From: Phoenicibacter congonensis
GTDB taxonomy: Bacteria > Actinomycetota > Coriobacteriia > Coriobacteriales > Eggerthellaceae
Direction: 5' to 3'
Assembly (NCBI RefSeq): GCF_900169485.1
Contig: NZ_LT821227.1
Coordinates: 1,240,001-1,304,000 of the forward strand
Length of the DNA stretch: 64,000 nt
The notes under the pieces are model-generated. The model was not told where the DNA came from. It did not search any database and worked only from the letters and a program-made list of their open reading frames with translations. The translations under genes were made by a program, and so were the position numbers. Shown piece by piece: positions 19,041 to 52,077 of this stretch (positions are counted from its first letter, which is position 1; each line of letters begins with the position of its first letter).

Positions 19041-20348
19041 ATGGCTAAATACAAAGTAGTACACTACCTAAATCAGTTCTTCGCAGGCATTGGCGGAGAA
19101 GACAAAGCTGACTTCAAACCAGAAGTACAAGAAAAGGTAATCGGACCAGGAATGGCTCTTCAAGCTGGTCTTGGTGAAGACTTTGAAATTGTTGCAACAG
19201 TTATCTGCGGCGACAACTTCTTCGGCGAGAACCTTGACGAAGCAACAGACACAATTGTTGACATGGTTAAGCAATATGAACCAGACGTGTTCGTAGCTGG
19301 ACCTGCATTTAACGCTGGTCGTTATGGTGTTGCTTGCGGCACAATCTGCAAAGCTGTTGAAGAGCGTCTTGGTGTTCCAGTTCTTTCTGGTATGTACACA
19401 GAAAACCCTGGTGCTGACATGTTCAAACAGGACGTAATTCTCGTTGCTACTGGCGACAGCGCTGCAACAATGAGAAAAGCAGTTCCTAACTTTGTAACAC
19501 TCATCAAAAAGATGGCTACTGGCGAGGAAATCCTCGGACCAGACGAGGAAGGTTACCTCGAGCGTGGCATCCGTGTTAACTACTTCGCTGATGAGCGCGG
19601 TTCTGAGCGCGGAATTAAAATGCTCATCAAAAAGATGGCTGGTGAGCCATTCAAGACAGACCTTCCAATGCCTAAATTTGACCGCGTTGAGCCAGGCCCT
19701 GCAATCACCGACATGGCACATGCAACAATCGCTGTTGTAACATCAGGCGGCATTGTTCCTCTTGACAACCGTGACCACATTGAGTCATCAAACGCTACAA
19801 AGTTTGGTTGGTACACAATGGAAGGCATGGACTCCTTAAGCAAAGATGACTACATGACCATTCATGGTGGCTATGACCGTCAATTTGTTCTCGAGAATCC
19901 AAACCTTGTTGTTCCTCTTGACACACTTCGTCAAATGGAAAAAGATGGCCGCATTGGAAAACTCTATCCAATGTTTGCATCAACAACTGGCACTGGTACT
20001 GCTACAAACTCAGCTGCTAAGTTCGGCACTGACATTGGAGCGAAGCTCAAGGAAGACGGTGTAGACGGCGTAATTCTCACATCCACTTGAGGCACTTGCA
20101 CTCGTTGCGGTGCAACGATGGTAAAAGGAATTGAGGCTTACGGCATTCCTGTAGTTCACATTTGCACAGTTGTCCCAATTTCTAAGACAATCGGTGCTAA
20201 CAGAATCGTCCCTGCTATTGGTATCCCTTACCCATTAGGCGACCCAACCGAGGGCGAAGAAGAGTCAAGAAAGATTCGCGACGAACTCGTCGAGAAATGC
20301 CTTGAGGCTCTTGAAACACCTGTCACAGAACAGACAGTGTTTGAATAA
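19041..20348 (+). CDS. grdB: Glycine reductase component B gamma subunit, selenoprotein
   Basis: The frame runs 435 codons with one in-frame UGA at 20088-20090, codon 350. The flanking sequence, VILTST-U-GTCTRCGATMVKGI, is the GrdB active-site motif, and known GrdB proteins carry selenocysteine at this position. Reading UGA as stop would give a 349-residue fragment plus an orphan 76-residue frame, although both parts match one protein. The selenocysteine attacks the glycine-derived Schiff base to release ammonia. The best resemblance is to the glycine-specific GrdB rather than the sarcosine (GrdF) or betaine (GrdH) forms. The closing residues TEQTVFE are also typical. Confidence 0.96.
20088..20117 (+). 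promoter_or_regulatory. Selenocysteine UGA and SECIS-like hairpin of grdB
   Basis: After the UGA at 20088-20090, CGTTGC at 20103-20108 pairs perfectly with GCAACG at 20112-20117 around a GGT loop (20109-20111). The loop begins 18 bases after the UGA, within the range known for bacterial SECIS elements, and the GGU apical bases resemble the SelB-binding loop of enterobacterial fdhF. The selenium machinery genes are not in the window. Confidence 0.8.
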
Positions 20349-48364: not shown

Positions 48365-48419
48365 AAACCTATTTCACCTCCAATCTTTTAATTAGCAAGC
48401 TAAGTTCTGCCGTTAGCTG

Positions 48420-48602
48420 GGCACAAAAAAACCCTTGCTCTGCGAAAACCGCAAAAAGACAAGGGTAAATCAATTCATATGAATTTCATTAACCACCTCG
48501 GTAGGCTGATTCCTCAATTAAACCTTAACGGTACCGACTGTCTTAAGCAGCAGAACTATTCTGTTATCAAACGCGTTCTCTCAAACGCGACTAGAAATTA
48601 TA
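48420..48602 (-). ncRNA. Ribosomal protein L10 leader with attenuator
   Basis: The minus-strand leader of rplJ carries the L10-leader motif (CCUACCGAGGUGG near 48510-48497) and then an attenuator: ACCCTTG-type arms (CAAGGGT at 48460-48466 and ACCCTTG at 48431-48437 on the plus strand) followed by seven T on the minus strand. When L10 is in excess it binds its leader and favours termination. A TATAAT -10 box (complement of 48597-48602) marks the promoter. Confidence 0.85.
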
Positions 48603-48662
48603 CATCAAAAAAAGTGGCGCTTTTAAACAAAAAGCAAATGAAAAGCGATGAAGCTCTTGTTG

Positions 48663-48691
48663 TTGTTTTGTGACACTGTGCAGTCTATAAA
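48663..48691 (+). promoter_or_regulatory. Candidate promoter of element A
   Basis: TTGTTT at 48663-48668 and TATAAA at 48686-48691 are 17 bases apart. The surrounding 21-mer ending in TTTTGTGACACT (48657-48677) is repeated with 19 of 21 identities at 48924-48944, where TTCTTT and TATTTT sit at the same spacing before element B. Confidence 0.45.
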
Positions 48692-48697
48692 GTCCAT

Positions 48698-48890
48698 AAG
48701 TTTTAAAAAATTCGCCTATTTTTAAAACCCAGGGCAAAATGACAAGAACCTTATATCTTTATCTAAGGTTTCTGATGGTTATTTAAAGGCCCGAAGCGAT
48801 GCCCCCAACCATCCAAATCTCCAGGCATCGCGAAATATGAATGGCGTCCTTCTTACCACCACCACCTTAAGGATGGACGCCTCATTCTTT
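48698..48890 (+). ncRNA. Structured RNA element A with (ACC)4 loop, candidate small RNA
   Basis: Three stems can form. AACCTTA/TAAGGTT (48747-48753, 48764-48770) is followed by GCGATGCC/GGCATCGC (48796-48803, 48824-48831) around a C-rich 20-base loop, then GGCGTCC/GGACGCC (48843-48849, 48875-48881) extended inward and capped by ACCACCACCACC. A T-rich TCATTCTTTT follows, as in a terminator. The middle hairpin contains AAATCTCCAGGCAT, identical in element C. The C-rich loops could pair with Shine-Dalgarno G runs. The strand is inferred; antisense peptide readings exist (see findings). Confidence 0.5.
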
Positions 48891-48964
48891 TAAAAAATCT
48901 TTTTAAAAATTGAATTCTAAATAATGTTGTTCTTTTGTGACACTCAGATTGCTATTTTGTTTTA

Positions 48965-49049
48965 TACAAGGAAATTACAGAAACAGGTGGTGGAATTTGA
49001 ACTAGAAAAAAGAACGAACGCTGATAATAAATCAGCGTTTTTAATTTTT
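48965..49049 (+). ncRNA. Short unit B with GGTGGTGG and terminator
   Basis: Downstream of a promoter-like repeat, AGGTGGTGG (48985-48993) is a nine-base perfect complement of CCACCACCT in the loop of element A. It is followed by a strong terminator: AACGCTGAT (49017-49025) and ATCAGCGTT (49031-49039) around AATAA, then TTTTTAATTTTT. It may be a small RNA that titrates A and C. A GTG-started 24-codon frame runs through the terminator and is unlikely to be coding. Confidence 0.4.
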
Positions 49050-49139
49050 AAAAGTCTCAAATAAAGCCACCAAAAAGATTAATTGAAGAGACGTGAGATA
49101 AGTTTCTTATTGTTTTGCTTAATCAATAGCTAAAGCAAA

Positions 49140-49281
49140 TGGGGTCGCGCTGATAGCGAAAAGAATAAATGAGACCCCAGGCAATGCCAATAACCTCGTC
49201 TAAATCTCCAGGCATTGTAAACATGATAAAAAAGGAGCTCTCCCTACCACCACCACCACCAAATAGGGAAGCTCCTCTTTT
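49140..49281 (+). ncRNA. Structured RNA element C with (ACC)5 loop, candidate small RNA
   Basis: TGGGGTC/GACCCCA (49140-49146, 49173-49179) encloses a small CGCT/AGCG hairpin. CAATGCC/GGCATTG (49182-49188, 49211-49217) follows with the 14-base segment shared with element A, and then GGAGCT-TCCCTA/TAGGGA-AGCTCC (49234-49246, 49264-49275) closes an (ACC)5 loop and ends in TCTTTTG. The pair A-T in the middle stem replaces G-C of element A. The last hairpin also has a T-tract on the minus strand (TTTTTT), so it may double as the terminator of the minus-strand operon. Confidence 0.5.
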
Positions 49282-49330
49282 GTTAATTTTATTTGAGCTT
49301 AAATTAATCTTTAACGAAAACTAGCAATAA

Positions 49331-50227
49331 CTAGAAATTAAGCGACAAATTTGCCGCAGTCAATTCAGCCCACGAGTATTGGCTCATATACTCTCCCCAA
49401 AATCCATCTCGCTCCGACTCGTCGCTAGCCAAAAAATTGTAATAGTCACAGTCAACATAATTGACGTCGACGGCAATGCTATTGTAACTTTTGATAATGC
49501 ACTCTCTTGCACCAACCGACTCAAAGGTCTTCATCAATGAAGAAATTATTGACTGAAGGTAACTTTGCCTTGTTGAATCATATGGCTTATCTTCAAATAA
49601 AACCGCAGCAAGTTCACGAATTGTGCAAGACGAACCACGCCGGTCAATCAAGTAGGCAAAAGCCTCTTTTGCAAGTCCCCTGCTAAATTTCAAAGGCTGT
49701 CCGTTGTAAAAAACTTCAAAATTGCCGAAACAACGAACTTCCAGTTTTTTTGCAGGCGCGTTTGACCCCAGCAATCTTTTGCAAACTCCAGTTTTTGGAT
49801 CACAGCTTCCATCTATGAATGCAACATTGCATTGCTCACGCTCTGCACACAAGGCACACAAATTTTTAACGGAATAGCGCAAGTTCTTTAATTCACATTT
49901 GATTTTTTCTACTGTGACAGGTTTTGTTACATAGCCAGAAGCTCGCAAATTCATAGCATCTGTTGCATAGTGTCCAAATCCTGTAACAAATATGATGTTC
50001 AAAAAAGGAAGTGTCGCCTTTAGCTTTTCAGCTAATTCTACGCCAGTCATCCCTCTCATTTCAACGTCAAGAAAAGCGATGTCAACTACTCCCCCATTAG
50101 CCACATATGCAAGAGCTTCTTTTGGCTTGCAAAAAGAATGCACATTGGCAGTATCCACAGCCGCTTTTACCGAATCCTCTAAAAGCTCAAGAGCAAGCAT
50201 CTCATCATCAACACAGAGAATTTCCAT
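49331..50227 (-). CDS. Response regulator with SARP-type DNA-binding domain
   Basis: The 298-residue protein has a receiver domain (1-118) with Asp7, Asp8, phosphoacceptor Asp54 (IAFLDVEMRG), Thr82 and Lys102. A linker holds cysteines 124, 127, 133, 142 and 149. The C-terminal part from about 163 (LEVRCFGNFEVFYNGQPLKF, KEAFAYLIDRRGSSCTIREL) is a winged-helix domain of the BTAD/SARP kind. It would activate or repress genes when phosphorylated by the kinase gene upstream, whose stop it overlaps in TAATG. Targets are unknown; the structured RNA region follows it. Confidence 0.88.
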   Translation of the reverse strand: MEILCVDDEMLALELLEDSVKAAVDTANVHSFCKPKEALAYVANGGVVDIAFLDVEMRGMTGVELAEKLKATLPFLNIIFVTGFGHYATDAMNLRASGYVTKPVTVEKIKCELKNLRYSVKNLCALCAEREQCNVAFIDGSCDPKTGVCKRLLGSNAPAKKLEVRCFGNFEVFYNGQPLKFSRGLAKEAFAYLIDRRGSSCTIRELAAVLFEDKPYDSTRQSYLQSIISSLMKTFESVGARECIIKSYNSIAVDVNYVDCDYYNFLASDESERDGFWGEYMSQYSWAELTAANLSLNF

Positions 50228-52077
50228 TAATTAAACTCCTCTTCCAAGCCGATGGGCAAGCGAATTGTAACAGTGCATCCTTTTCCATGAGAGCTATCAA
50301 TTGAAAATTCTGCTCCAGGGAAGGCTCCAATTCGCTTTCGCGAGTTCTCAATCCCAAAGTGAGTCTTCCCAACTTCTGGACTTTTTTTGGGATTAAAACC
50401 AGGTCCGTTATCCTTAATTTTTACAACCGCAAAATTTCCTTCTTTGATTGCTGAAAGAATAACTGTGCCTCCTTCCTCAAGCGCACATGCACCATAACGA
50501 ACGGCGTTTTCCACCATTGCTTGTATGCAGAGCGGTGGAACATAGAAATCATCAAAAGATATTACTTCTTTGAAAGCAAGGTCGTCGCCAAATCTCATCT
50601 TTTCAAGTGCCATGAAATGACGAATGTGCTCTAGCTCCTTTTTAAATGGAATTAGACGAGCCTGTGACAAAACGTCCATGTTTTCCCGCATATAATCAGC
50701 AAAAGTTAGGACTTGCGCTTTTGCCTGCTTTGGGTCTTTGTCGCAAAGGCGGGCGATCGAAGCCAAAACGTTATACAAGAAATGTGGCTGTATTTGGCTC
50801 AACATAACTTGTGTTCGAGCTTGCACTAAATTCGCACGCAAGCGTTCAGCCTTTTCCCCTTGAAGCAATTTTTCGTTTGCCTCAACAATGAGCAGGCGCA
50901 GTTGTGATATGCCAAACACCAAAAGTCCAATTTCAAACAAAATGACCCAGAACGTTCCTGATATCACATAATGAACCATCTCAAATAAAGCCATGATTGA
51001 CACACCACATGCGAAAGGAACGAAAAGAAGGTTCTCGCGCCAGTAACGACTTCTCATTTCAATTAAAACGAGCACAATGAGCACAATTATCCCAGCGATA
51101 GCTATTGGAGCAGCAATTTGGACGCACTCTTTTAAACCAAAGACTCCCGCTGCAGCTAAAATCAAAGAAAAGCCAGCACACACTATCAAGGCTCCAAAGA
51201 TTAAAGAACCCACAGTTTGTGATTTGGAGCTCGTTAGAAGTGAGCGCAAATAATCAACAATAGAGACAACAATTAGCAATTGAGAAGCATAGTCGATCCA
51301 ATTGACAACCTGAACTTCAGAAAAAATCAAACAAGTGTAGTGATAATCAATCAAGCAACAGATTGCGCCTGCGATGAGAAGAGTCCCAGTCGAAAAATAA
51401 TGCGGCGAAATCTCTTTTTTTGTTGCCCTCAAAAGAAAAAGTGTGAATGCATAAAATAATCCAATTAGCAAAATTATTAGACCTAAAATAATGTTTACAG
51501 AATGCTTAACAAGCTGCTTCTGTAACAAATTTATGCCGTCTTCTGAGTAGAGACTAGAGCAAAAATCGTCTAAATCTTGGGCAGCGTTGGGCCCCGAAAC
51601 AGTTACTTCAATGGAAGTGTGTGGTTCGCACAAAAAACGATTCCATCCATAGCCATAGTAATGTTGAAGGCGTTTATGTTCTGAGGCATTTCTCTCAAAA
51701 ATTATGGAATCGTCTTCAAGATTTTTAATTGTTATGTTGTCTGCATTAGAGTAAAAATAAAGTTCATGAATTTCAATTTCAAGCACTTCAGCAGATAAAG
51801 TAATCCTTGAGTCACCATCTTTTACTAAAGGCCCTAAAAAATTCTCAAGATCACTGTGATTAGAAACTTCATTCCACTCACCGTCGTCAACTTTCACAGC
51901 TTTCTTTTGAAAGAATTCCTCTACTGGAGTTGAACGATCACGAATGTCGCCATTGTGAACAAGGCTTTTATTTGTAATCGAAAAAAACCCAAGATAAATC
52001 GTGACGACACTAATTGCCGCGATTGCAAAGAGTCGCCACGCAAAATTCCCTTTATTTTCTAAAAACCTTTTTTTCAA
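50227..52077 (-). CDS. LytS/7TMR-DISM-type sensor histidine kinase
   Basis: The 616-residue protein has an N-terminal membrane anchor, an extracellular domain (about 35-180), seven membrane segments (about 190-400) and a cytoplasmic PF06580-type kinase: SQIQPHFLYNVLASIARLCD with phosphoacceptor His432, then AMVENAVRYG (N box) and KDNGPGFN (G box). The start is TTG behind GAGGTG. The extracellular domain resembles the 7TMR-DISM sensory part, suggesting a small ligand or carbohydrate. It is cotranscribed with the response regulator and two upstream genes. Confidence 0.87.
   Translation of the reverse strand: MKKRFLENKGNFAWRLFAIAAISVVTIYLGFFSITNKSLVHNGDIRDRSTPVEEFFQKKAVKVDDGEWNEVSNHSDLENFLGPLVKDGDSRITLSAEVLEIEIHELYFYSNADNITIKNLEDDSIIFERNASEHKRLQHYYGYGWNRFLCEPHTSIEVTVSGPNAAQDLDDFCSSLYSEDGINLLQKQLVKHSVNIILGLIILLIGLFYAFTLFLLRATKKEISPHYFSTGTLLIAGAICCLIDYHYTCLIFSEVQVVNWIDYASQLLIVVSIVDYLRSLLTSSKSQTVGSLIFGALIVCAGFSLILAAAGVFGLKECVQIAAPIAIAGIIVLIVLVLIEMRSRYWRENLLFVPFACGVSIMALFEMVHYVISGTFWVILFEIGLLVFGISQLRLLIVEANEKLLQGEKAERLRANLVQARTQVMLSQIQPHFLYNVLASIARLCDKDPKQAKAQVLTFADYMRENMDVLSQARLIPFKKELEHIRHFMALEKMRFGDDLAFKEVISFDDFYVPPLCIQAMVENAVRYGACALEEGGTVILSAIKEGNFAVVKIKDNGPGFNPKKSPEVGKTHFGIENSRKRIGAFPGAEFSIDSSHGKGCTVTIRLPIGLEEEFN

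Follow-up and report, generated by a model that had tools for sequence, protein, structure and literature searches.

Small RNAs (sRNAs) of the alpha-r14 (NfeR1) group occur in rhizobia in several copies, and silence transport and metabolic messages at the ribosome site (PMC10746234). The tandem siblings NmsRA and NmsRB of Neisseria are 70% identical, have three stem-loops and block the Shine-Dalgarno sites of metabolic genes by means of UC-rich single-stranded stretches (PMC5362039). Two reports on E. coli (PMC7730263, PMC10653868) assign CstA and BtsT to the CstA family and to pyruvate uptake, and describe the LytS-type kinase BtsS as controlling btsT.

In the window analysed here, a stretch of 64,000 nucleotides from Phoenicibacter congonensis, two elements named A and C lie in the gap between the L10 leader and rplJ (- strand) and the end of a response-regulator gene (Table 1). 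They resemble alpha-r14, in which an identical antisense motif stays unpaired in hairpins of differing stem sequence (PMC10746234), in that their loops are invariant while 6 of 21 stem pairs are changed on both sides. Alpha-r14 presents one motif, CCUCCUCCC, in three hairpins, whereas A and C have two motifs in two hairpins. Neither A nor C has CCUCC in its loops, and because CCUCCUCCC is absent here they are not alpha-r14 members; by analogy they may work like one. With NmsRA and NmsRB they share the arrangement of two related, here predicted, sRNAs in tandem. The host groups are however unrelated, the Neisseria RNAs lack ACC repeats, and their seeds occupy stem-loop 2 and the stretch that joins it to stem-loop 1, instead of the terminator loop.

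Two related elements and their locus

Both elements are tandemly placed on one strand, 390 nt apart. They share a middle hairpin (8-bp stem, loop of 20-22 nt) followed by a terminator hairpin around an ACC repeat and by T-rich DNA, and the covariance model limits this common part to 48796-48887 in A and 49181-49281 in C. The initial annotation of this DNA had proposed two related RNA structures, and sequence and folds bear this out for A and C, both on the + strand. The 14-base segment that it had reported as identical, AAATCTCCAGGCAT, is present at 48815-48828 and 49202-49215, and its ACC repeats of four and five units are found as (ACC)4 at 48855-48866 and (ACC)5 at 49246-49260. A hairpin loop holds each repeat, and T-rich DNA follows. 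Equally real is the paired change from G-C to A-T in the middle stem (column 3 of the alignment). Other parts of that description had to be revised. The terminator stems, taken to be unrelated and perfectly paired, are diverged yet alignable, with A and C differing on both sides at several pairs, and each contains one bulged base. Nor does a first stem belong to the common layout, since A has a different one from C; the first part of A is without obvious homology to that of C.

Table 1. Features of the gap and its flanks, in positions of the window
Feature	Positions	Strand	Basis or description
Rfam L10_leader	48417-48565	-	Rfam scan
Upstream box TGTTGTTGTTTTGTGACACT before A	48658-48677	+	repeat search
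Promoter-like TTGTTT - 17 nt - TATAAA for A, start near 48698	48663-48691	+	read from sequence, tentative
Element A	48747-48892	+	structured RNA with predicted intrinsic terminator at 3' end
5' hairpin of A (AACCUUA...UAAGGUU), absent from C	48747-48770	+	fold
Middle hairpin of A, 8-bp stem, 20-nt loop with CAUCCAAAUCUCC	48796-48831	+	fold, alignment, covariance model
Invariant loop motif AAATCTCCA in A (9 bases)	48815-48823	+	three-copy alignment
Terminator hairpin of A, (ACC)4 loop and T-rich tail	48843-48892	+	fold, alignment, covariance model
Second copy of upstream box, before B	48925-48944	+	repeat search
Region B, possible third small transcript	48945-49046	+	folds, terminator scan
Element C	49140-49285	+	structured RNA with predicted intrinsic terminator at 3' end
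First stem of C, UGGGGUC/GACCCCA, also in congener	49140-49179	+	folds
Middle hairpin of C, loop with AAAUCUCCA	49181-49218	+	fold, alignment, covariance model
Terminator hairpin of C, (ACC)5 loop	49234-49285	+	sequence, fold, covariance model
Response-regulator gene	49331-50227	-	gene calls
Two-component pair: receiver-domain regulator and kinase with Pfam His_kinase (LytS-type)	49331-52077	-	

The two-component pair beside the elements recalls BtsS/BtsR, in that its kinase has a LytS-type His_kinase domain and that the candidate target discussed below belongs to the CstA family; it differs in that the response regulator here is without a LytTR domain in Pfam, the part of it on the C-terminal side being unassigned. 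A link of the adjoining kinase to CstA-type control is no more than suggestive. We know of no sRNA in the CstA/BtsT-BtsS/BtsR system of E. coli. The close relatives of the response regulator are scattered over several phyla.

Two minor features of the 5' part of A may be recorded. It contains a short open frame, MTRTLYLYLRFLMVI, at 48739-48786, and GATGGTT at 48777-48783 could pair with AACCATC at 48808-48814 in a pseudoknot-like manner, reaching into the middle loop. Such pairing could hide part of the seed; no equivalent was seen in C or in the congener.

Fold, strand and family

The + strand folds of A and C were stronger than those of dinucleotide-shuffled sequences (z -3.6 and -5.5, respectively, with no shuffle as good), whereas the - strand folds were weaker (z -1.3 for A and -2.3 for C). 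In a three-copy alignment of A, C and the single homologue of the one congener examined (assembly G001; L004, 1432-1583), 59 of 61 cells are paired (96.7%). As a control the partner was slid by 1-3 columns, which brought pairing down to 40-52%, and the pairing and covariation values of the alignment were matched by the shuffle control in 2 of 500 cases. Changes on both sides, at the 6 of 21 pairs given above, are modest in number in these three sequences, but they are spread over both helices. MAFFT alone misaligned the stems; in the alignment used, N was inserted manually so that it agreed with the folds. Since such padding favours structure, the result was checked with a covariance model trained on just A and C, the congener sequence not being included.

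A search of related sequence with a model of this kind had been suggested in the initial annotation, and it recovered the congener copy at 49.5 bits (E 1.3e-9). This copy is syntenic, being flanked in that species by the rplJ leader on one side and the response-regulator gene on the other, and it has the same loops on varied but paired stems, as had been anticipated for a conserved RNA structure with selected loops. The middle loop AAAUCUCCA is constant in all three copies; AAATCTCCA in the middle loop and ACCACCACC in the terminator loop are invariant, while the number of ACC units varies between three, four and five. Both loops are almost wholly unpaired in the predicted fold. Taken together, A and C are very probably functional structured RNAs. 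The congener copy carries the first stem of C, UGGGGUC/GACCCCA, which points to it as the counterpart of C and to A as a diverged sibling.

The wobble cells allow the strands to be told apart. Five are G-U on the + strand, and hence A-C on the - strand, against one of the reverse kind, and this suggests that the + strand RNA is the selected one. It could be argued that the functional RNA is instead read from the - strand, as an element in the 3' untranslated region of the response-regulator message presenting GGUGGU loops, since C lies directly behind the stop codon of that gene and its - strand also beats the shuffles. With the - strand of A unremarkable, wobble pairs five to one in favour of the + strand and both copies closed by a + strand terminator, we regard this as very improbable.

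The terminator hairpin of C is flanked by A-rich sequence on its 5' side and T-rich sequence on its 3' side, and on the - strand it may serve as a terminator of the response-regulator message too. The runs of A before and of T after this hairpin and that of the congener, as in a bidirectional terminator, would fit a reading in which A and C are mere terminators with decorative loops and nothing acts in trans. A terminator has no need of a second hairpin and an invariant loop, however, and the middle hairpin, the 9-base motif and the ACC loop have all stayed constant while the stems varied. This simpler reading is accordingly judged improbable.

The spread of the family is narrow. With the covariance model under strict filters and at E 0.1, neither 138 family genomes nor 397 order genomes, outside the genus in both cases, gave a further copy; laxer filters applied to 39 relatives gave a sole match outside the genus, at E 0.28. 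Plasmids and phages gave no match. Pattern hits in viral contigs were dismissed as chance, since of the 80 stretches scored, out of 104, none exceeded 17.8 bits. A mobile or dispersed repeat was likewise ruled out, there being two copies in this genome and one in the congener, in synteny. The initial annotation knew of no fitting family, and in Rfam 15 neither A, B, C nor the congener copy has a match at the gathering score, L10_leader nearby being the only one; relaxed thresholds yielded chance-level matches only. Nothing of relevance came from a search of the literature for small RNAs of related gut Actinobacteria. The family, without a covering Rfam model, is well supported as new and appears restricted to the genus, known here from two species. 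The presence in two species and the lack of copies in the genomes searched outside them suggest that it is young or fast-evolving.

Candidate targets of the two loops

No + strand gene lies downstream of A or C. A cis-regulatory leader was rejected on this ground, which leaves a stand-alone sRNA as the reading that comes most naturally. We favour, with some reservation, the view that A and C are sibling sRNAs restricted to the genus, each with its own terminator, which act in trans through two antisense loops. They would be made as short + strand RNAs of about 145-195 nt, each ending at an intrinsic terminator, and would expose two seeds: the middle hairpin would present CCAAAUCUCCA, or CUAAAUCUCCA in the case of C, and the loop of the terminator would present (ACC)3-5. 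By pairing over the start region of a target, its Shine-Dalgarno sequence included, the middle loop would keep ribosomes from binding; the ACC loop would touch the cstA message a second time, in the loop of its 5' hairpin. As an outcome, cstA and perhaps a few other messages would be repressed in translation. In this small-genome bacterium, such RNAs could couple the uptake of carbon sources to an RNA switch.

The initial annotation had proposed that UCUCC and the ACC runs would be free to meet GGAGA or GGTGGT ribosome sites. As a general rule this did not hold, for in a sample of 464 kb in 21 stretches, with 395 called genes, start regions were on the whole no richer in complements of the loops than gene interiors were, and complements of the ACC loop did not outnumber those of shuffled loops. 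It retains force for one gene, cstA, which fits both loops in order. A general titration of Shine-Dalgarno sites is unsupported, start regions showing no enrichment.

One may nevertheless consider that the siblings have many weak targets, as a broad anti-Shine-Dalgarno regulator, and not a few specific ones. UCUCC can pair with GGAGA within the Shine-Dalgarno sequence, and a pattern search of the whole genome counted GGAGATTT before ATG 21 times, compared with 4 occurrences of the reversed control, and pointed to individual genes. GGAGATTT is the Shine-Dalgarno sequence of rpoZ and hypD in both species, a conservation that could be chance. An excess of this size is however expected of any GGAG sequence, GGAGATTT is not a preferred Shine-Dalgarno sequence (3 of 161 GGAG sites), and with no enrichment of loop complements at start regions we hold such broad action to be unlikely.

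The best candidate target that we find in this genome is the carbon-starvation transporter gene, cstA, whose product matches Pfam CstA. Its leader contains GGAGATTTGGATG, a 13-base perfect complement of CATCCAAATCTCC in the middle loop of A, covering the Shine-Dalgarno sequence and spacer. Directly after TATAAT the leader has a 5' hairpin, GCUGCUA-GAGGUGGUU-UAGCAGC, with GGUGGU in its loop, which in the predicted fold is unpaired except for the last base and lies 21 nt upstream of the Shine-Dalgarno sequence. The two sites are collinear with the two RNA loops in antiparallel pairing. By summed two-loop energy cstA headed the 394 start regions with A as well as with C; shuffled loop pairs equalled its score in 1 of 60 cases for A and 2 of 60 for C, where it should be noted that the cstA stretch was chosen and not random. 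Cofolding ranked cstA third among 395 for both A and C, and second for the congener RNA. When the middle loop of A was changed the rank fell to 117, while changing the ACC loop gave no drop, in a nested model that cannot show loop-loop kissing. Among the readable cstA leaders of other genera both sites are absent, and the congener assembly, 84% complete, yielded no cstA; were the gene truly absent there, the congener RNA would need other targets. Since, as given above, shuffled loops can equal the two-loop score of cstA, the gene is to be taken as a lead and not a result, and that it is a real target seems possible but doubtful.

The lack of enrichment of complementary sites at start regions would also agree with a protein-binding RNA, in which the siblings would titrate an RNA-binding protein by offering it the unpaired AAAUCUCCA and the ACC repeats as sites. 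A short single-stranded motif repeated in loops in variable number, here three to five ACC units, would suit such a role. Each RNA nevertheless has the middle motif only once, no protein known to bind ACC repeats was identified, and the two-loop match at cstA would have to be chance, which makes titration of a protein rather improbable compared with antisense action.

Predicted transcription signals and region B

As to stand-alone transcription, A and C have terminator hairpins, and their putative promoters are weak by consensus. The promoter-like site before A has a weak -35 and falls below the threshold of the promoter scan. A 20-base direct repeat with 19 of 20 identical positions (95%; TGTTGTTsTTTTGTGACACT) precedes both A and B, and is perhaps a shared promoter or regulator box.

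Region B has a predicted terminator hairpin of its own at 49016-49040 and carries GGTGGTGG at 48986-48993, complementary to the ACC loops. The sequence of B, including GGTGGTGG, is not conserved in the matching stretch of the congener. One may speculate that B is a sponge for the ACC loops, and, as a long shot, that the locus forms a two-key system, in which the siblings would kiss the GGUGGU loop of cstA by (ACC)n and pair with its Shine-Dalgarno sequence by the other seed, with B, through GGUGGUGG, as the sponge. Where this genome has GGTGGTGG, the congener has GCTGGAGGGTT, in its upstream stretch (L004, 1270-1440), and this is partly complementary to the congener's own middle loop.

Two further observations were made elsewhere. 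Two identical 38-base stretches, GTGAAAGCGTGTAGGGAGATTTCGCATGGAAATCAGCG, lie about 11.5 kb apart in the genome (L136 and L137; genome positions 1306005 and 1317535). Within the window, Rfam SECIS_4 matches at 20091-20128 on the + strand with 61.7 bits, and the organism therefore probably makes a selenoprotein from that region.
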